A DNA stretch of 21,848 bases from a virus. The DNA lies in IMG/VR virus record IMGVR_UViG_3300017739_000135, positions 1 to 21,848 of that record; one strand, given 5' to 3'. Shown one piece after another: positions 1-16,255 of this stretch (its first letter is position 1; every line of letters starts with the position of its first letter). A program made the position numbers and the translations under genes. The notes beneath the pieces are model-generated. The model searched no databases and was not told the DNA's origin. It saw only the letters and a program-made list of their open reading frames with translations.

Positions 1-369
1 GACGAGTGGGCTGACAGTGTGGGGCTTGTAGCGTCAACACATTACAACCACCCGTCAACCGTTTGGGTACGCTCTAGCGTTGACCATTACCAATGGATGC
101 AACAGCTTCTTGTTCACCTATTAGCACAAAAGCTGTTACGTTTTGGCACACCTCATATGTACACCAAGTTCGTTGACATCTTAGCTGTTGTGCCTGACAA
201 CATAGACGATGTTGGCTTTACGCCACCACCACCAGCTATGCCTGACGAGTACAAGACAGACTGTTCCATTCAGTCCTATCACAATTATTATGTAGGTGCT
301 AAGTCACACTTTGCTAAGTGGGCGCACACAGAAATGCCAGCATGGTATGCAATGCGGTTATTCGCTTGA
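1..369 (+). CDS. Conserved phage protein, 5'-truncated by the window edge
   Basis: An open frame runs from the first base to TGA at 367-369, so the true start lies upstream. The visible 122 residues carry a pattern I recognise from many phage proteins: a histidine/asparagine-rich stretch (HYNHPSTVW), an aromatic helix (VDHYQWMQQLL), GTPHMYTK, then MPDEYK, a SYHNYY motif, a K-x-x-x-A-x-W spacing and a terminal P-x-WY. Family members are usually listed as hypothetical and some are compared with pyrimidine-dimer glycosylases. I cannot confirm an enzymatic role, because the N-terminal part, where a 'cDKH'-type motif usually sits, is outside the window. The gene ends just before the regulatory region at 370-600. 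An internal GTG at 19 is not needed as a start. Membership of a conserved family is fairly secure; function is unknown. Confidence 0.75.
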   Translation, partial: DEWADSVGLVASTHYNHPSTVWVRSSVDHYQWMQQLLVHLLAQKLLRFGTPHMYTKFVDILAVVPDNIDDVGFTPPPPAMPDEYKTDCSIQSYHNYYVGAKSHFAKWAHTEMPAWYAMRLFA

Positions 370-377
370 CACTTTAT

Positions 378-391
378 ATCCACTCAGGCAT
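378..391 (+). repeat. 14-nt element ATCCACTCAGGCAT, copy 1, inside a palindrome
   Basis: This copy is identical over 14 nt to the one at 4576-4589. Its 3' end forms half of a perfect inverted repeat: AGGCAT (386-391), CGT, ATGCCT (395-400). It sits between the first gene and the regulator/integrase genes. It may be an operator or part of a promoter. The role is inferred only from recurrence in intergenic positions. Confidence 0.6.
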
Positions 392-422
392 CGTATGCCT
401 TAACATTATTACGGAGAGTTTA

Positions 423-734
423 TTGCTTAAATATAAGTATGTGAAGATTCCATTCATCGGGGGGAGCGTCTACGTTGAACACAACAAAGACAACAACTCG
501 TTGTGTGGGTGGGAGTGGTGTTGTAATACACCTGACAGAGAACTCTTTTTGTACATCCGTAAGATACGGGTAATCTATACACCACCATCATGGAGACACA
601 ATGGTCAAACCAATGGCACGGGTAACGGAGAAGCAGGAAGCACTATCACAGATACTGAAAGTGATAGAGAGGTTTCGAGATTTAGACCCAGAGATACAAA
701 CACAAACCGTGGCAGTATTTCTGACTGTGGCTAA
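423..734 (+). CDS. Possible small protein with TTG start, overlapping the regulator gene
   Basis: A GGAG (413-416) lies 6 nt before TTG at 423, opening a 103-codon frame to a stop at 732-734. The first 60 residues look protein-like (hydrophobic and aromatic stretches such as FLYIRKIRVIYTP). After 601 the frame overlaps the far better supported MarR-like gene in another phase and becomes a polar, low-complexity sequence (NTNRGSISD). An overlap of 134 bp is unusual for this genome, where most overlaps are 1-60 nt. I do not recognise the product. The alternative is that 370-600 is a non-coding control region and this frame is fortuitous, which I think slightly more likely. Confidence 0.25.
   Translation: MLKYKYVKIPFIGGSVYVEHNKDNNSLCGWEWCCNTPDRELFLYIRKIRVIYTPPSWRHNGQTNGTGNGEAGSTITDTESDREVSRFRPRDTNTNRGSISDCG
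557..569. promoter_or_regulatory. Palindrome CCGTA-AGA-TACGG upstream of the regulator gene
   Basis: This is a perfect 5-bp inverted repeat with a 3-nt spacer, ending 31 nt before the regulator ATG. MarR-family proteins commonly bind palindromes near their own promoters, so it could be an autoregulatory operator. No binding evidence exists in the sequence itself. The more upstream palindrome at 386-400 has the same arm-3-arm design but a different sequence. Confidence 0.3.
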
Positions 735-957
735 ACATCCTGTACCTATCAAGATGCAGGAAATAGCTGACGAATTGGGGCTTGCACAATCCAGTGTGAG
801 CCGCAACGTGGCATGGCTGGGTAGCTGGTCACGCCACCACAAGAAGGGTCAAGAGTTGCTGGAAGCATACGAAGACCCGATGGAACGCAGACGAAAGCTG
901 GTGAGGCTGACTGCCAAAGGCACACGCTTTGCCAAGTCTTTGTCTGCATTAATATAG
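601..957 (+). CDS. MarR-like winged-helix transcriptional regulator
   Basis: The product is 118 aa. Residues about 50-73 form a helix-turn-helix (MQEIADELGLAQSSVSRNV), with the recognition helix in SSVSRNV. Residues about 97-104 (RRKLVRLTAKG) match the wing and 'LT-x-KG' turn typical of MarR proteins. Basic and acidic helices flank the domain and could form the dimer interface. GGAG at 592-595 lies 5 nt before the ATG, supporting this start; an in-frame ATG at 613 is an alternative. The gene is followed after 10 nt by the integrase, and the integrase ribosome-binding site overlaps the regulator stop codon, so the two are probably co-transcribed. From that linkage I infer a role in controlling integrase or RNA polymerase expression, perhaps as the lysogeny repressor. 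The fold is well supported; the role is inference. Confidence 0.8.
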   Translation: MVKPMARVTEKQEALSQILKVIERFRDLDPEIQTQTVAVFLTVAKHPVPIKMQEIADELGLAQSSVSRNVAWLGSWSRHHKKGQELLEAYEDPMERRRKLVRLTAKGTRFAKSLSALI

Positions 958-967
958 GAGACTGCCT

Positions 968-1969
968 ATGCCAGTACGCAAACGGGGTAACAAGTGGCAA
1001 GTCGATGTCCGTAAACAGGGCATCGTGTTTCGTCACAATTACCCAGCACAAGAACAGGCTGATGCAATGCTTGTTCAGGTTGAGGATGCCATATCCAAAG
1101 GCTTGCCTCTGCCTGACCCTGAGTGTGCTATGCCACAGGCCATGACTGTCGCTGAGTTGTTCAACAAGACAGCCGATAGGTACTGGTCTGAAACTAACTG
1201 GGGCATGACTGCCATCCGTACATCACAAGAGATTGTTGATGTGGTGGGTAGGAACTGTCTCGCCAGCCAGATTGATGACAATCTTGTTGATGACCTGATT
1301 GCTTTCTTCAAACGAAAAGGCAACGGGAATTGTACAATCAATAAGAAGCTGTCTGTATTATCCAAGGCTTGTAACTTTGGGTTCAAACGTGGCTGGCGTA
1401 AAACAAAGCTCAATATTGAGTGGCTTGACGAGGGCAGAGGCCGCATCAGGTTCGTCACTGAAGACGAGGAACTTATGTTGTGGAATATGTTTCGTCAGAT
1501 GCGGATGTATGACGAGCTAGACACTTTCATGTTCCTGATAGATACCGGGATGCGTGTAGGTGAGCTACGCAACATCCAATTCAAAGACCTCAATGGCAGT
1601 CGGTTGACTGTCTGGAAAACCAAGAGTGGGAAACCTCGCACTGTTGTTCTGACAACACGAGCAAAAGAAATATTTGTTCGGCGTAACGGTGACCTTTCAA
1701 TGACACCTGATAAGGTGCAGTATTCTTGGAACAAGGTTAAACGTGCGATGGGCATGGGGCATGACAAAGAATTTGTGCCTCACTGTCTTCGCCATACTTG
1801 TGCCTCTCGCCTCGTGCAGAGGGGTGTTCCCCTTCTTGTTGTGAAGGAATGGCTTGGTCACGCTGACATTCAGATGACCCTAAAATATTCCCATCTGTGT
1901 CCAACAAATCTGGAAGACGCAGTGAAGGTTCTTGAACCTAGCAACAAGGTGACAAAACTTGTGGCATAA
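968..1969 (+). CDS. int: Tyrosine recombinase integrase
   Basis: A 333-aa tyrosine-family site-specific recombinase. A basic N-terminal segment (residues 1-30, MPVRKRGNKWQVDVR) resembles the arm-site-binding domain. Residues about 60-150 form the SAM-like core-binding domain. The catalytic domain has Arg196 in TGMRVGEL, a lysine in the beta-hairpin WKTKSGKPR (217-224), His272-x-x-Arg275 in HCLRHT, His298 in LGHAD and the nucleophile Tyr307 in KYSH. The full catalytic set is therefore present and the enzyme looks active. GGAG at 957-960 is 7 nt before the ATG. Integrases at this place, just upstream of the phage RNA polymerase, are known from P-SSP7 and several pelagiphages. The phage is therefore probably able to integrate, with the attachment site most likely near this gene. 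Confidence 0.96.
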   Translation: MPVRKRGNKWQVDVRKQGIVFRHNYPAQEQADAMLVQVEDAISKGLPLPDPECAMPQAMTVAELFNKTADRYWSETNWGMTAIRTSQEIVDVVGRNCLASQIDDNLVDDLIAFFKRKGNGNCTINKKLSVLSKACNFGFKRGWRKTKLNIEWLDEGRGRIRFVTEDEELMLWNMFRQMRMYDELDTFMFLIDTGMRVGELRNIQFKDLNGSRLTVWKTKSGKPRTVVLTTRAKEIFVRRNGDLSMTPDKVQYSWNKVKRAMGMGHDKEFVPHCLRHTCASRLVQRGVPLLVVKEWLGHADIQMTLKYSHLCPTNLEDAVKVLEPSNKVTKLVA

Positions 1970-2051
1970 TGGTGACATTGTGACACGTATGTCGTTGTGG
2001 CAGAAGGACTTACAGGCGGTTAGCTAGTAACTGATTCTATAAGTTCTGTAT

Positions 2052-2065
2052 ATCCACTACGGCAT
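2052..2065 (+). repeat. 14-nt element, copy 2 (12 of 14 matches)
   Basis: ATCCACTACGGCAT differs from the consensus ATCCACTCAGGCAT at two positions. It is followed by CAATACCTTAAC, and the copy at 378 is followed by a similar TATGCCTTAAC. It lies in the RNA polymerase leader, 55 bp upstream of another copy. Confidence 0.5.
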
Positions 2066-2106
2066 ACATCAATACCTTAACCAAACTGGCTTGGACAATA
2101 GCCATC

Positions 2107-2120
2107 ATCCACTCACGCAT
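2107..2120 (+). repeat. 14-nt element, copy 3 (13 of 14 matches)
   Basis: ATCCACTCACGCAT differs from the consensus at one position. It lies between an in-frame TTG at 2091 and the preferred RNA polymerase ATG at 2163, which supports reading this stretch as leader rather than coding sequence. Tandem copies upstream of one gene would suit cooperative binding by a regulator; that is inference. Confidence 0.5.
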
Positions 2121-2162
2121 CAGTCAGCATGGGTGGATGTCACAAACAGGAGTGTATTGTAT

Positions 2163-4571
2163 ATGTCTAGTGACAAACAAGTTTTACTAGAACGTGAGAT
2201 GCGAGAACATGGATTGTCTCGCTATCACAAAAACAATCTGAAGAAGGCTGAACGCAATCAGGAATCAACCACTGATTACGGACAGCATCTTCTGAGGGCA
2301 ACCTTAGAATCACTTGAGGTTGCCATCACAAGCTTCATCGAAGACAGCATGAATGGAAGGGCTGGTAAGGCCGCAACCAGTGCTGTCCTACTCTCAAACC
2401 TTGAGCCTTCAGTCATCTCTGTCATCACGCTGAAGGTTGTGCTTAATCAAATCACAAGGCAACGTGCCTACACATCTTCAGCAGTGGCACTGGGTATGGC
2501 TCTGGAAGACGAGCTACGCATCAGGTCATTTGAGGAGAACAATCCAAGGCTGATGAAGGTGGTGATGAAAGACCTTGAGTCTCGCTCATCATCCTACTCA
2601 TACAAACGCCGCAAGCTCATCGAAGCGGCACGGCGTGACGGGGTAGAGTGGCAAGCATGGACACAACGTGAACGGCTTCTTGTTGGCAATGCTCTGATTG
2701 ACTTGACCATCCAGCATACTGGGCTTCTGTCTCACAAGATGGTCACATCAGGGGGCAAGAAGCGTAGGCTCTTGTTACCTACCGAAACCACAATGGATGC
2801 CATCAAGGACTTGAACGCTTTCAAGGAAGTGCTGAAGCCTGACTTCTATCCTTGTGTTGTCCCACCCCGTGATTGGATTAGCCCTTACGATGGTGGGTAT
2901 CACTCACACCACATCAGGCCGCTGACTATGGTGAAGACCGACAATCACAATTATCTGTCGGAACTAAAACACTTTGATATGCCTCAAGTCTACGGTGCGG
3001 TGAACGCCATGCAGAGGACAGCCTTCAAGGTGAACACCAGTATCTTGGATGTGCTTCGTGAGGTGTGGAACACGGGCATTGACTTGCCTACCCTACCACC
3101 ATCTGAAAACTATCCCATCCCAGCAAAGCCACAGGACATTGCAACCAACAAGGAAGCAAGGACAGCGTGGAAACGGGAAGCGGTCATCATCCACACCGAA
3201 AACAACAGGCTCGATTCCAAGCGGCTCTTGTTGAGGAAGACCATCGAAGTGGCTGACAAGTTTCAGGATGAACCAGAGTTGTACATGGTTTACCAGCTAG
3301 ACTTTCGTGGCAGGGCGTACTGTGTCCCCAACTACCTCAACCCACAAGGCACTGACTTTGCCAAGGCATTGCTCATGTTCAGCGAGGGCAAGCCGATAGA
3401 TGACAACGGTGCGTGTCACCTTGCCATACACGGGGCTAACTGCTTCGGGTTCGACAAGGTATCACTTCAAGAACGGATTGATTGGGTGCAAAAAAATCAG
3501 AAGCAAATCCTGTCTTGCGCTTCAGACCCATTGGCTGACTTGTGGTGGGCAAAGGAAGCTGACTCTCCGTTCCAGTTCCTTGCCTTCTGCTTTGAGTGGG
3601 CTGGCTGGGTTCAGCAGGGTGCAGGGTTTGTCTCTCACCTTCCTGTGTCTGCTGATGGCTCGTGCAATGGACTGCAACACTTCGCCGCCATGCTTCGGTC
3701 ATCTACCACAGGCAAGGAAGTCAACCTCATCCCACATGAAGAACCACAGGACATTTATCAGAAGGTGGCTGACCGGGTAACCGATAAGCTGAAGACGATG
3801 GACAATCCTCTGGCTAGTCAGTGGCTTGAGTTTGGTGTCAAGCGTGGATGTACCAAGCGTCCCTGCATGGTGTTGCCTTACGGGGGCAAGCAGTATTCTT
3901 TCTCTGACTTTGTGATGGACTACATCGTGGAACAGAAAGAAAAAGGTAATATGCACCCCTTCGGTGACGATGCGTTCAAGGCATCTACCTTCCTTGCCAA
4001 AGTTATCTGGGACTCGATTGGTGAGATTGTCCATGCCGCAACGGATGCGATGGCATGGCTTCAGAAAGCCTCACGGGTTGCCAGTTCGGAAGGCTTGCCT
4101 ATCCGCTGGGATACCCCGGTCAACTTCCCGGTGCTTCAGGCGTACAAGGCCACCAAGCCCTTCCGGGTAGACACCAAGCTTCTTGGTTCTGTCATCCAGC
4201 CCACGCTCTACAAGGAGACAGGTAAGATTGACAAGAACCGTCAGTCCAATGGCATCAGCCCCAACTTTGTACACAGCATTGATGCGGCACACATGATGAT
4301 AACGATTGACGTTGCCACACAGTGTGAAATCTACAGCTTTGCGATGGTGCATGACAGCTACGGTACTCATGCGGCAGATGCAGAATTGATGTGGTGGTGT
4401 CTCCGTAAAGCCTTCGTTGAGATGTACTCTCAGACAGATGTGCTTGAGGATTTCCGTGCTGACTTGCTTGGAGTTCTTCCCAGACACAGGCACTCAGAGA
4501 TAGAGTCTGTCCCATCGAAGGGTGACCTCGACATCAGTGTTGTTGAGGACAGCCCATTCTTCTTTGCCTAG
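2163..4571 (+). CDS. T7-like single-subunit DNA-directed RNA polymerase
   Basis: With ATG 2163 the product is 802 aa (T7 gp1 is 883). AGGAG at 2148-2152 supports this start; the longer frame from TTG 2091 would read through a repeated leader element. Landmarks are DFRGRAY with NPQGTDFAK (about 380-400), the catalytic Asp498 in SADGSCNGLQHF, and Lys565 and Tyr573 in TKRPCMVLPYGGK. These match T7 Lys631 and Tyr639 with the same 8-residue spacing. A specificity-loop region follows at about 672-698 (KLLGSVIQPTL...), then SPNFVHSIDAAHM, the second catalytic Asp731 in MVHDSYGTHAAD, and the FFFA end that parallels T7's FAFA. All key residues are intact. It would transcribe the middle and late genes from dedicated phage promoters, candidates for which lie at 4591, 13186 and 16238. 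The unusual specificity loop fits promoters that differ from T7's. Confidence 0.98.
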   Translation: MSSDKQVLLEREMREHGLSRYHKNNLKKAERNQESTTDYGQHLLRATLESLEVAITSFIEDSMNGRAGKAATSAVLLSNLEPSVISVITLKVVLNQITRQRAYTSSAVALGMALEDELRIRSFEENNPRLMKVVMKDLESRSSSYSYKRRKLIEAARRDGVEWQAWTQRERLLVGNALIDLTIQHTGLLSHKMVTSGGKKRRLLLPTETTMDAIKDLNAFKEVLKPDFYPCVVPPRDWISPYDGGYHSHHIRPLTMVKTDNHNYLSELKHFDMPQVYGAVNAMQRTAFKVNTSILDVLREVWNTGIDLPTLPPSENYPIPAKPQDIATNKEARTAWKREAVIIHTENNRLDSKRLLLRKTIEVADKFQDEPELYMVYQLDFRGRAYCVPNYLNPQGTDFAKALLMFSEGKPIDDNGACHLAIHGANCFGFDKVSLQERIDWVQKNQKQILSCASDPLADLWWAKEADSPFQFLAFCFEWAGWVQQGAGFVSHLPVSADGSCNGLQHFAAMLRSSTTGKEVNLIPHEEPQDIYQKVADRVTDKLKTMDNPLASQWLEFGVKRGCTKRPCMVLPYGGKQYSFSDFVMDYIVEQKEKGNMHPFGDDAFKASTFLAKVIWDSIGEIVHAATDAMAWLQKASRVASSEGLPIRWDTPVNFPVLQAYKATKPFRVDTKLLGSVIQPTLYKETGKIDKNRQSNGISPNFVHSIDAAHMMITIDVATQCEIYSFAMVHDSYGTHAADAELMWWCLRKAFVEMYSQTDVLEDFRADLLGVLPRHRHSEIESVPSKGDLDISVVEDSPFFFA

Positions 4572-4575
4572 TACA

Positions 4576-4589
4576 ATCCACTCAGGCAT
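4576..4589 (+). repeat. 14-nt element ATCCACTCAGGCAT, copy 4, abutting the first phage promoter
   Basis: This copy is identical to that at 378-391 and ends 1 nt before the TAATAC of the promoter at 4591. Its GGCAT forms an imperfect inverted repeat with the promoter's ATACC (GGCAT, TTA, ATACC). A protein bound here would overlap or touch the promoter. It directly follows the RNA polymerase stop codon. Confidence 0.6.
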
Positions 4590-4590
4590 T

Positions 4591-4608
4591 TAATACCCTG
4601 CATATTAG
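4591..4608 (+). promoter_or_regulatory. Putative phage RNA polymerase promoter before the DNA-metabolism genes
   Basis: TAATACCCTGCATAT (4591-4605) recurs exactly at 13186-13200, also between genes. Aligned with the T7 consensus, TAATAC occupies -17 to -12, 11 nt follow ending in an AT-rich ATATTA, and G4608 falls at +1. The known T7 promoter has TAATAC, 11 nt and then G. It lies just after the RNA polymerase gene, as expected for a middle-gene promoter. Confidence comes from the exact repeat plus the layout; it has not been tested. Confidence 0.7.
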
Positions 4609-4633
4609 ACCAGCAGAGTGTTCTGTTGGTCTA
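4606..4633 (+). ncRNA. Strong RNA hairpin at the predicted 5' end of the middle transcript
   Basis: TAGACCAGCAGA (4606-4617) pairs with TCTGTTGGTCTA (4622-4633) in 12 bp with one G-U pair and a GTGT loop. Starting from the predicted +1 (4608) the transcript would open directly with a 10-bp stem. It could protect the mRNA 5' end or be an RNase III site, as in T7 intercistronic hairpins. No T-run follows, so it is not an intrinsic terminator. This is a structural element in a leader, not an independent RNA gene. Confidence 0.55.
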
Positions 4634-4649
4634 TCTAACGGAGACCAAT

Positions 4650-4778
4650 ATGGAAGAACTCCTTGAATTATATGAAGAATTGGATGTTGCAGTACCTGTA
4701 GATATCCAGACCAAGGCCATAGAAACCTATGGCTTCATCTTAAAAGACAACTATCCACAGGAGAATATGGATGGCTAG
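4650..4778 (+). CDS. 42-aa acidic small protein of unknown function
   Basis: ATG at 4650 follows GGAG (4640-4643) with ideal 6-nt spacing, and the frame ends at TAG 4776-4778. The peptide is acidic and helical-looking (MEELLELYEELDVAVPVDI at the N-terminus) and ends in NMDG. It is the first gene after the predicted phage promoter and hairpin and overlaps the SSB start by 8 nt, suggesting coupled translation. I do not recognise it. T7 has a small acidic inhibitor of host RNA polymerase (gp2, 64 aa) near the equivalent position, but no sequence match supports calling this gp2. Confidence 0.65.
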   Translation: MEELLELYEELDVAVPVDIQTKAIETYGFILKDNYPQENMDG

Positions 4779-5397
4779 AAAAGAACATGAACCTTTGCTT
4801 ACACCAAGTGGCATTGCTGTTTACCCTCATCTCAATCGCCCTGATGTTTACAAAGACCCACAGTCTGGTGTCTCTGGCAAGCCTCAGTACAAGGTGAACC
4901 TCTCTCTTACACAAGAAGAAGCTACACCTCTTATCACCAAGATTGAAGAGACCAAGAAGACTGCCCTTGCAATGATACCAAAAGACAAGAAGCAGAAGGA
5001 ATCGGATGACCCTTACTACAACGAGCTTGACAGTGAGGGACAAGAGACAGGCCGTGTCATCTTTAAGTTCAAGATGAACGCTGAGATTAACACAAAGGAT
5101 GGACGCAAGATTGACATTGCACCGAAGCTGTTTGATGCCAAGGGTGTCTTGCTCAACGATTGTGATGACATCTGGGGTGGTTCAATCATGCGTGTATCGG
5201 CTGACCTCATCCCATACTACGTTGCCGCAGTCGGTGCTGGTGTATCACTCAGACTGAAAGCCGCACAAATCATTGAACTTAAAACAGGTGGGGGTGCTGA
5301 TGCCTCGTCATACGGCTTCTCTGCAACGGAAGGATTTACTGCACCGACAGAGACAACCACGAGTTCGGAGTTCTCTGACGATGATGAAGACTTCTAG
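4771..5397 (+). CDS. T7 gp2.5-like single-stranded DNA-binding protein
   Basis: The 208-aa product has the gp2.5 plan. An OB-fold-like body contains Y-K-V-N-L-S-L (about residue 40), VIFKFKMNAEI and IDIAPKLFDAKG. VSADLIPYYVAAVGAGVSLRLKA parallels T7's VKYSLVPYKWNTAVGASVKLQLE. A Thr/Ser/Glu-rich tail ends in FSDDDEDF. The acidic tail with a terminal phenylalanine is the element that contacts DNA polymerase and helicase in T7. T7 gp2.5 is 232 aa. AGGAG at 4759-4763 lies 7 nt before the ATG. The protein would coat single-stranded DNA during replication and recombination. The following endonuclease gene starts inside its last codons. Recognition rests on the conserved core and tail. Confidence 0.9.
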   Translation: MARKEHEPLLTPSGIAVYPHLNRPDVYKDPQSGVSGKPQYKVNLSLTQEEATPLITKIEETKKTALAMIPKDKKQKESDDPYYNELDSEGQETGRVIFKFKMNAEINTKDGRKIDIAPKLFDAKGVLLNDCDDIWGGSIMRVSADLIPYYVAAVGAGVSLRLKAAQIIELKTGGGADASSYGFSATEGFTAPTETTTSSEFSDDDEDF

Positions 5398-9989: not shown

Positions 9990-10488
9990 GCATTGCATTG
10001 ATTGCGGTGACCCCCTTGTTATTGGAGATAACTGGACAGAAGCCAGAGAAAATCAGAGCAAGTATGTATGTAAGTCATGCTGGCACAAAGGCAAACGTGC
10101 TGAGATGTGGGTGGGTGGAAAGTATATCGCAAAGTCCCACCCGTTATGGAAGCCCGGACGTTACAAAACATTTGAAGAAGCGGCCTTTGAAAGTCTTGGT
10201 AACTACACTCGCAGTAAGGAAGGTGAAGTGTACATCATCACCAACCCTGCTTGGCCTGAGTGGATTAAGGTAGGCATGGCAGTCGATGCTGATGACCGTT
10301 GCAACGGTTACCAAACAAGTAGCCCATTTCGTGACTATGAAATTGTGTATTCGTTTAAGACCGATGACAGGCGCAAATCAGAGCGTGATGCTCATACTTT
10401 GATTGAACGGTATGCAGAAGAGAGGCGTGGTGAATGGTTTAAGATTACACCGGGCACGGCATCTCATTTATTATCAACTATCCACTGA
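9937..10488 (+). CDS. Zinc-ribbon plus GIY-YIG/T5orf172-type protein
   Basis: With GTG 9937 the product is 183 aa. GGAG at 9927-9930 with 6-nt spacing favours it, though the frame stays open from ATG 9874. The N-terminal part has two cysteine pairs (HCIDCG and CKSC, about 27 residues apart) forming a probable zinc ribbon. The C-terminal half (GEVYIITNP, WIKVGMAVDADDRCNGYQTSSPF, DAHTLIERYAEERRGEWFKI) matches the T5orf172/MUG113 branch of the GIY-YIG nuclease fold. The catalytic Tyr, Arg and Glu are plausible in VYII, DDRCNGYQ and GEWF. The gene overlaps the polymerase end by 53 nt. It may be a structure-specific or homing-type nuclease. The fold assignment is good, the function uncertain. Confidence 0.8.
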   Translation: MNSLENTESETTGQKPIKHCIDCGDPLVIGDNWTEARENQSKYVCKSCWHKGKRAEMWVGGKYIAKSHPLWKPGRYKTFEEAAFESLGNYTRSKEGEVYIITNPAWPEWIKVGMAVDADDRCNGYQTSSPFRDYEIVYSFKTDDRRKSERDAHTLIERYAEERRGEWFKITPGTASHLLSTIH

Positions 10489-10496
10489 GGTATATT

Positions 10497-11497: not shown

Positions 11498-13188
11498 TAC
11501 CAAACCAGCATTACGGGATGACACTTCCCATTTCAGATGAGATTGACGCAATTAAGTATAGGCAGACAGGGGAAGATTTCTATTCCAAGGTAGTTCGTAT
11601 TGCTGGGGCATTGAAGGATGACCCACTGCACTTTGAGACATTCAAGGATGTACTCAGGCACATGAGGTTTCTCCCTGCTGGCAGAGTACAAAATGCTATG
11701 GGTGCTACACGGCAGACCACAGCGTTCAACTGCTTTGTGTCAGGCATCATTGAAGACAGTATGGACAGCATCATGCACCGGGCTACACAGGCCGCAGAAA
11801 CCATGAGGCGTGGTGGTGGTATCGGCTACGACTTCAGCCGCTTGCGTCCACGGGGTGACCGTATCAAGTCACTCGACTCTAAGGCATCTGGTGCTGTGTC
11901 TTTCATGCAGATTTATGATGCAGTCTGTCAGACCATCGCATCCTCTGGTCATAGGCGTGGGGCACAGATGGGGGTACTTCGTATTGACCACCCTGACATT
12001 GAACAGTTCCTTACAGCCAAGCAGAACAGTGACAAGCTGACAGGCTTCAACATCTCCATCGGTGTGACTGACAAGTTTATGCGGTGCTTGGAAGATGGTG
12101 AGCCATTCCCTCTTGAGTATCAGGGTGAAGTCTACAAAGAGGTAGACCCTGAGAACCTATGGGACATGGTGATGCGTAGCACATGGGATTGGGCTGAACC
12201 GGGCGTTCTGTTCATCGACACAATCAACAAGATGAACAACCTACGCTACTGTGAAACCATCGAAGCCACTAACCCATGTGGTGAACAGCCCCTGCCACCA
12301 TTCGGTGCGTGTCTGCTGGGGTCTTTCAACCTACCTAAGTATGTCATTGATGGTAAGTTTGACTTCGGATTGTACGTCAACGACATCTATCAGGTAGTTC
12401 GTGCGATGGATAACATCATTGACCGTACTATCTACCCACTCCCAGAACAGAAACAGGAAGCAAAGAACAAGCGTAGAATGGGGCTTGGTGTAACAGGCTT
12501 GGCTAATGCGGCTGAGATGTGTGGACACGCCTATGCCTCTGATGAGTTCATGGAGTTTACTGAGACTGTACTGGAAACCTTACGTGACCATTGTTACTCA
12601 GCGTCTGCTGACCTAGCAGAAGAGAAGGGTTCATTCCCACTCTATGATGAGTACAACTATATGGACAGTAAGTTTGTTAAGACGCTACCTGAGTGGGTAC
12701 AAGAGAAAATCAAACGTCAGGGTATCCGTAACTCTCACCTCACATCTATCGCACCTACAGGCACAATCAGTCTGACTGCTGACAACGTGTCATCAGGGAT
12801 TGAACCACCGTTCAGCCTCTTCTATGACCGCACAATCCAGCAGTTTGATGGGCATACAGTCGAGCGTGTTGAGGACTATGCCTACCGTCAGGGGGTATCA
12901 GGCCGTACCGCTAACGAGATTTCTGCACAGGAACATTTAGCTGTGTTGGCTCTGGCTTCTCAGTACGTTGACAGTGCGGTGTCTAAGACCTGTAACGTGG
13001 GAGATAACGTCACCTATGACGAGTTCAAGAACCTCTATTACGATGCGTGGAAACAAGGATGCAAAGGAATAACTACCTTCCGTGCCGCTGGAAAAAGGTA
13101 TGGAATTTTGAACGAGGTAAAAGAAGACGAGCCAAACGTAGAGGCTTGCTTTATTGACCCGGATACTGGGTTAAAATCCTGTGAATAA
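11494..13188 (+). CDS. nrdJ: Adenosylcobalamin-dependent (class II) ribonucleotide reductase
   Basis: A 564-aa NrdJ-type reductase. The active site has Cys80 (FNCF), the loop Asn260-x-Cys262-x-Glu264 (ATNPCGEQPLP) and Cys273 (GACLLGSFNL). The 11-residue spacing between the thiyl-radical cysteine and its partner equals that in the Thermotoga enzyme. Glycine-rich MRRGGGIGYDFSRLRP and APTGTISLTADNVSSGIEP are further class II hallmarks. The C-terminal Cys pair (ACFIDPDTGLKSC) may act in re-reduction. No NrdB-type small subunit is encoded nearby, consistent with use of coenzyme B12 from the host. The enzyme makes deoxynucleotides for phage replication. P-SSP7 also carries a reductase between the exonuclease and portal genes. 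It starts within an ATGA overlap. Confidence 0.96.
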   Translation: MIPNQHYGMTLPISDEIDAIKYRQTGEDFYSKVVRIAGALKDDPLHFETFKDVLRHMRFLPAGRVQNAMGATRQTTAFNCFVSGIIEDSMDSIMHRATQAAETMRRGGGIGYDFSRLRPRGDRIKSLDSKASGAVSFMQIYDAVCQTIASSGHRRGAQMGVLRIDHPDIEQFLTAKQNSDKLTGFNISIGVTDKFMRCLEDGEPFPLEYQGEVYKEVDPENLWDMVMRSTWDWAEPGVLFIDTINKMNNLRYCETIEATNPCGEQPLPPFGACLLGSFNLPKYVIDGKFDFGLYVNDIYQVVRAMDNIIDRTIYPLPEQKQEAKNKRRMGLGVTGLANAAEMCGHAYASDEFMEFTETVLETLRDHCYSASADLAEEKGSFPLYDEYNYMDSKFVKTLPEWVQEKIKRQGIRNSHLTSIAPTGTISLTADNVSSGIEPPFSLFYDRTIQQFDGHTVERVEDYAYRQGVSGRTANEISAQEHLAVLALASQYVDSAVSKTCNVGDNVTYDEFKNLYYDAWKQGCKGITTFRAAGKRYGILNEVKEDEPNVEACFIDPDTGLKSCE

Positions 13189-13203
13189 TACCCTGCATAT
13201 AAG
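13186..13203 (+). promoter_or_regulatory. Putative phage RNA polymerase promoter before the virion genes
   Basis: TAATACCCTGCATAT (13186-13200) is an exact 15-nt copy of the element at 4591. G13203 is at the predicted +1, giving a transcript starting GAGGAC. The promoter starts on the nrdJ stop codon and marks the switch from DNA metabolism to structural genes, where T7 also places late promoters. The predicted leader is only 10 nt long and its first bases (GAGG) would serve as the ribosome-binding site of the next gene. Confidence 0.7.
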
Positions 13204-13212
13204 AGGACTAGA

Positions 13213-16196: not shown

Positions 16197-16237
16197 AAGT
16201 TATCTCTATCCAAGTAAACAGTTTGGCTCTCTGCGGA

Positions 16238-16255
16238 GAATACCCGTTCTTGTAG
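16238..16255 (+). promoter_or_regulatory. Possible third phage promoter before the capsid gene
   Basis: GAATACCCGTTCTTGTAG (16238-16255) keeps AATACCC, the 11-nt spacing and G at +1 with TA at -2/-1, but differs from the 15-mer at 4591 and 13186 in its middle part. It lies in a 141-bp gap before the capsid gene, where T7 has its strong phi10 promoter. This is the weakest of the three candidates. Confidence 0.45.

Follow-up and report, generated by a model that had tools for sequence, protein, structure and literature searches.

The 21.8-kb IMG/VR record analysed here over its full 21,848 nucleotides (IMGVR_UViG_3300017739_000135, hereafter the window) comes from a T7-like phage, with genes in the order regulator, tyrosine integrase, single-subunit RNA polymerase, SSB, primase, DNA polymerase and exonuclease, followed by the structural genes. 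A 14-nt element, ATCCACTCAGGCAT, recurs along this layout at five candidate operator sites, O1 to O5 (Table 1). It occurs exactly at O1 and O4, with one mismatch at O3 and with two mismatches at O2 and O5; the recurrence described in the initial annotation was thus borne out by a mismatch search. When up to three mismatches were allowed, ten matches were obtained against 2.2 expected, a number reached in none of 100 shuffles, and one other two-mismatch match, at 10252 on the - strand, falls within a coding open reading frame and looks like chance. For comparison with the position weight matrix (PWM) scores of the five sites, the median best score among shuffles was 10.5.

Table 1. Features of the window that bear on the 14-nt element (coordinates in the window).
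Feature	Position	Core	Strand	PWM score	Remark
TTGACA-like -35 hexamer (line 361: ttcgcTTGACActttat)	near 366..371		+		kept in related loci L021 and L011
Candidate operator O1, in front of the regulator-integrase operon	376..393	378-391	+	22.8	exact copy
Palindrome AGGCAT-CGT-ATGCCT	386..400		.		present in window
MarR-like winged-helix regulator, 118 aa	601..957		+		PHROG 9665 'transcriptional regulator'; proposed repressor
Tyrosine integrase	968..1969		+
Candidate operator O2, between integrase and RNA polymerase	2050..2067	2052-2065	+	24.0
Candidate operator O3, between integrase and RNA polymerase	2105..2122	2107-2120	+	20.9
Inverted partner of O3, CAGCATGGGTGGAT (ATCCACCCATGCTG on - strand)	2125..2138		-
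T7-like single-subunit RNA polymerase	2163..4571		+
Candidate operator O4, 4 nt past the RNA polymerase stop codon	4574..4591	4576-4589	+	24.7	exact copy
Phage RNA polymerase promoter TAATACCCTGCATATTA|GA, in front of SSB	4591..4609		+		exact; start near 4608; abuts O4
SSB	4771-5397
Operator-like O5, overlapping the upstream stop codon and the exonuclease ribosome-binding site	10478..10495	10480-10493	+	19.1	less certain
Second phage RNA polymerase promoter	13186..13204		+		1 mismatch; no operator alongside

The outer palindrome at O1, to which attention had been drawn initially, is real but is not the conserved feature: it is only partly retained in the related locus L021 (GGCA-ATC-TATGCC), and L011, L012 and L013 have no such palindrome at that position. 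A similar GCAT-N3-ATGC echo occurs in the host promoters P1 and P2 of Pseudomonas phage LUZ100. Not being conserved among relatives, the outer palindrome was rejected as the operator, and the sequence comparison points instead to the imperfect 14-18 bp dyad itself. The initial annotation had noted neither the imperfect dyad symmetry of the 14-mer nor the inverted copy beside O3; the resulting ATCCAC...GTGGAT pair is preserved in L009, L011, L012, L013 and L021. O1 starts 6 nt downstream of the -35 hexamer, the equivalent gap in LUZ100 P1/P2 being 4 nt. No good -10 partner for it was found in the window, and the promoter listing has none at that place.

The conservation of the element was assessed in 21 loci from 20 related IMG/VR records, the RNA polymerases of which are 78-100% identical. 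In these records the element recurs at the same places: one copy precedes the regulator, two lie between integrase and RNA polymerase, and one lies in the gap from RNA polymerase to SSB. It is also present in the early region of the longer records G005 and G010. The strong copies are intergenic and lie on the coding strand. The late region of the near-complete records holds almost no copies, and the isolated matches at G012 25398 and G008 25760 fall within coding sequence. The fifth copy, O5, originally described as overlapping the ribosome-binding site of the exonuclease, is retained in the closest relatives (L008, L010, L017, L018, L022 and L026); it appears to be real, yet coding or ribosome-binding constraint may explain part of its conservation. 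An apparent natural deletion emerges when the 39.9-kb record G008 (L014, L032 and L033) is compared with G010: the regulator, the integrase and the operators on the RNA polymerase side are missing, and the open reading frame that precedes operator, regulator and integrase in G010 sits 64 nt from the RNA polymerase gene.

Because of its single orientation and intergenic position, the element was at first suspected to be a promoter served by the T7-like RNA polymerase that the phage encodes. Its presence upstream of genes throughout the clade, together with a CACT core that recalls T7 and SP6 promoters, would fit this idea. However, the window clade has a separate promoter of T7 geometry in three genome places, one of them just after the terminase region (G005, G008 and G012). 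Clade variants of the window promoter TAATACCCTGCATATTA|GA were found in G005, G008, G010 and G012, in the form TAATACCC(TG/AC)CATATTAGA or TAATAGGGTGCATATTAGA. In the window this promoter had been thought to overlap the O4 copy, as the TAATAC promoter; in fact the core of O4 ends at 4589 and the promoter starts at 4591, with one base between them. As a separate observation, GGGACACTATAGG, which resembles an SP6/K11-type promoter core, lies downstream of the post-terminase TAATACCC promoter at G012 32316 and G005 24423 (reversed contigs).

The promoters of LUZ100 have been mapped experimentally and are annotated in its record (PMC10134795). Its RNA polymerase is 42% and its regulator 49% identical to those of the window. 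The LUZ100 phage promoters read AATTACCACACAG(T/G)NNTGGA, a sequence unlike the ATCCAC sites, and the latter fall in host promoters. The element therefore differs in sequence from the phage promoter both where this has been mapped, in LUZ100, and where it has been deduced, in the window clade; on the strength of the LUZ100 comparison and the TAATACCC promoters the promoter explanation was rejected as highly improbable, a judgement that is also in line with regulator-less pelagiphages, which retain a promoter-like sequence but not the element.

The pattern ATCCAC(T/C)NNNGCAT has 13 matches in LUZ100 at up to one mismatch, against 0.7 expected. Two of these sites fall between the -35 and -10 elements of the host promoters P1 and P2, which read TTGACA-N4-ATCCACCAGCGCAT, with the -10 region TAAGAT starting at the last base of ATCCACCAGCGCAT. 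The element thus abuts or overlaps promoters in both phages, within the P1/P2 spacer in LUZ100 and one base from the phage promoter at 4591 in the window. Further LUZ100 sites lie between integrase and RNA polymerase (3941 and 3997), between RNA polymerase and SSB (6691 and 6967), and at the primase-DNA polymerase, capsid-tail and terminase junctions, the last group being comparable to O5. This spread bears on another explanation, that the integrase uses the sites for arm-type binding: two copies do lie just downstream of the integrase gene, but the others are kilobases off, and in LUZ100 they occur within host promoters and late genes. This explanation is considered very improbable. A weaker inverted operator match was also seen in LUZ100 (L036) at 2226-2243 on the - strand, where it falls in P3, the host promoter that drives the regulator-integrase operon; this may point to autoregulation of that operon.

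The pelagiphages, whose MarR-like regulators are 42-57% identical to that of the window, offered a held-out test, in which a symmetrised matrix trained on the window clade and LUZ100 only was applied and p was calculated against random windows of the same phage. A site just past the RNA polymerase stop codon was found in 12 of 12 MarR-bearing pelagiphages (p 0.03 to <0.001), at position +2/+3 in 11 of them and at +17 in S28C10. Within 2-3 nt of the stop codon these phages carry, for example, CTATGCACTAGCGGATAG (HTVC022P) or CTATGCACATGTGGATAG (HTVC048P), and in several of them a T7-like promoter follows immediately (TAAAGTTACACTATTAG in HTVC019P, among others); the site is usually adjacent to the middle promoter. 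Conversely, the element is missing after the RNA polymerase stop codon in Eistla, HTVC168P, HTVC031P and HTVC142P, which are without an annotated regulator or integrase (absence was read from the annotations, and for HTVC142P from the first 4.6 kb only); these four phages have a promoter-like TAAAGTACCCATAGTAG almost directly after the stop codon. The element is accordingly kept in relatives that keep the regulator, namely the window clade, LUZ100 and the 12 pelagiphages, and this co-occurrence across phages lends support to the initial proposal that the linked MarR-like protein is the one that would recognise it.

The symmetry of the site was tested on sequences pooled over phages, since a single-sequence test is weak for the window clade. 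For the 18-mer after the RNA polymerase gene in 20 phages, a mean of 5.4 of 9 pairs was obtained, against 2.3 (sd 0.3) at random sites, a figure that the relatedness of the phages makes optimistic. The dyad consensus is ATCCACT.NNGGCAT in the window and CTATSCACT.AGYGSATAG in relatives. The window clade is the least symmetric, its left half ATCCAC being nearly invariant and its right half GGCAT less conserved. In the roseophages CRP-125 and CRP-361, which have a divergent regulator, a different dyad, CTAACC...GTTAG, occupies the same spot, and their recognition helices read TQTTLNR and PQTTINR, as opposed to AQSSVSRN.

The change of dyad in the roseophages also bears on the question of whether a host factor, rather than the phage regulator, reads the sites. 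The consensus of the DnaA box is TTATNCACA, and CTATCCACT and CTATGCACA agree with it at about 7-8 of 9 positions. The exact TTATNCACA is nevertheless absent from G005, G010, G012 and LUZ100, and its copies in the window lie elsewhere; where the regulator differs, this position is taken by half-sites that do not resemble the box (CTAACC, TAACCCAGT), and regulator-less phages with the same hosts lack the element. DnaA boxes are therefore considered very unlikely, and the roseophage sites are more easily reconciled with a regulator-specific operator than with DnaA or another host factor.

The regulator itself is likely a member of the MarR family and would act in the manner of a MarR repressor. 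The structure model shows a winged helix with helices at both ends (10-24 and 105-117), at a predicted local distance difference test (pLDDT) score of 66, and nearly all top Foldseek matches are MarR proteins, including a MepR-DNA complex, but they are weak (E >0.04). At the level of sequence, the Pfam MarR and MarR_2 matches stay below cut-off (MarR_2 18.6 bits against a cut-off of 27), and only HTH_27 reaches its own.

Taken together, the sequence comparisons suggest, with a probability of about 0.82, that the linked MarR-like repressor uses the element as its operator. This regulator would bind the imperfect 14-18 bp dyad, probably in dimeric form, and would repress rather than activate. 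Bound at O1, it would occupy the spacer of a host-type promoter and so control its own regulator-integrase operon; binding at O2, at O3 and at the inverted partner would stop transcription into the RNA polymerase gene; and O4, once occupied, would leave the first phage (middle) promoter covered or roadblocked. From the blocks at O2/O3 and O4 it would follow that the prophage in its lysogenic state is silent at two levels, with the phage polymerase absent and the target of that polymerase blocked.

Several observations weigh against this interpretation. The structure model of the regulator is of moderate confidence, and zero Foldseek matches pass E 0.001. The dyad is weak in the window clade (2-6 of 9 pairs), with a much more conserved left half, and nearly all strong copies have the same orientation, which is unusual for a symmetric dimer site. 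Since the compared phages are related, their sites are not independent. G008 retains the SSB-side copy despite its apparent loss of regulator and integrase, which may reflect a recent loss, a missing part of the contig or a sign of another role. In the matrix test the MarR-less HTVC168P reached p 0.029, at another position and inside promoter-like sequence, and the distant MarR phages Pasto, the Limnohabitans phage and P-SSP7 showed no such site after the RNA polymerase gene. 

In a separate search of genome contigs, no prophages with the LUZ100 regulator were found, and the LUZ100 RNA polymerase as query gave a single distant prophage, which has no such regulator beside its polymerase. Among 385 genomes of the class of this prophage, four T7-like polymerases were found; in the three of these loci that were examined no regulator homologue was nearby, and a comparable site was missing in two. 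As a side observation, a divergent T7-like element in a bacterial genome (L066 in G234, reverse strand) has AATCCACGACTGCCAACCTA repeated after and upstream of its RNA polymerase gene, and these repeats may be an operator or promoter of its own.

The one-sided orientation could also be accounted for by a variant of the operator reading, not exclusive of it, in which the repressor sites act like stoperators and additionally roadblock elongating polymerases at gene junctions. The mostly asymmetric conservation and the position of sites tucked behind stop codons would agree with such a role, as would O5 and the junction sites of LUZ100. On the other hand, the window clade has few copies, almost none of them in late genes, some sites are squarely within promoters, and the symmetric sites of pelagiphages suggest binding by a dimer, whereas the mycobacteriophage repressor is a monomer (PMC9283540). 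A stoperator-like function is thus regarded as rather unlikely. Still tentative, if slightly less doubtful, is the more general proposal of an operator code common to the temperate members of the T7-like phages: a single small MarR-like protein would block host promoters, the polymerase gene and the phage promoter and roadblock gene junctions, the dyad would track the recognition helix, and virulent relatives would have arisen through joint loss of regulator, integrase and operators.

Two further identities for the 14-mer had been dropped. An Rfam scan of the window gave zero matches, and an RNA element was set aside on this basis; likewise, a tRNA search of the window found none, and a tRNA or att site was abandoned. 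Two small stems were observed in addition. One, GGCT-N8-AGCC, lies between O2 and O3 at 2088-2103, resembles stems found ahead of the RNA polymerase gene in G005 and G008, and is possibly an RNA processing site. The other is a short hairpin upstream of the capsid gene at 16228-16239, TCTC-TGMG-GAGA, with matching sites in G005, G008, G010 and G012; in G010 it reads TCAC/GTGA, so that pairing is preserved.

T7-like phages were long regarded as strictly lytic, although some of them stay silent as prophages. With a candidate operator sequence that occurs in LUZ100, a Pseudomonas phage whose promoters have been mapped, as well as in cultured pelagiphages and in uncultured relatives, the MarR hypothesis can be put to a direct test using the DNA and protein of LUZ100. 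The element could also serve as a sequence signature that separates temperate from virulent members of the group, and it may form part of a repressor-operator pair working beside orthogonal T7-like promoters.

MarR-based lysogeny control has been proposed before, for LUZ100 and, in work that the LUZ100 paper cites, for Pasto and other temperate T7-like phages; repression of phi1 via flanking binding sites was proposed in the LUZ100 paper itself (PMC10134795). The present analysis adds a specific candidate operator sequence with its dyad symmetry and shared layout, shows that it sits in host promoters and next to the phage promoter, and finds it together with the regulator. LUZ100 resembles the window in gene order (MarR-like regulator, integrase, RNA polymerase, SSB), in having sites around its polymerase gene, and in the sequence of the element, whereas the accessible part of its published text gives no operator sequence and no mention of sites in P1/P2 or beside SSB (PMC10134795); the 2022 Pasto study may hold operator predictions. 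Compared with T7-type promoters (TAATACGACTCACTATAG), TAATACCCTGCATATTA|GA is of equal length and identical in its first six bases but differs at specificity positions, and it is a neighbour of the element, not the element. The stoperators of cluster A mycobacteriophages are mostly one-directional and lie at gene junctions, both of which hold for the present element. They are likewise many short repressor sites across a genome, but their repressor acts as a monomer that has two DNA-binding domains and recognises an asymmetric site (PMC9283540), in contrast to the predicted MarR-type winged helix, the dyad and the far fewer sites seen here. Finally, although the phage regulator is only 118 aa long and its Pfam MarR match lies below cut-off, it may resemble the MarR-family regulators with palindromic operators in its predicted winged-helix fold with flanking helices and in a candidate dyad operator that overlaps promoter elements.

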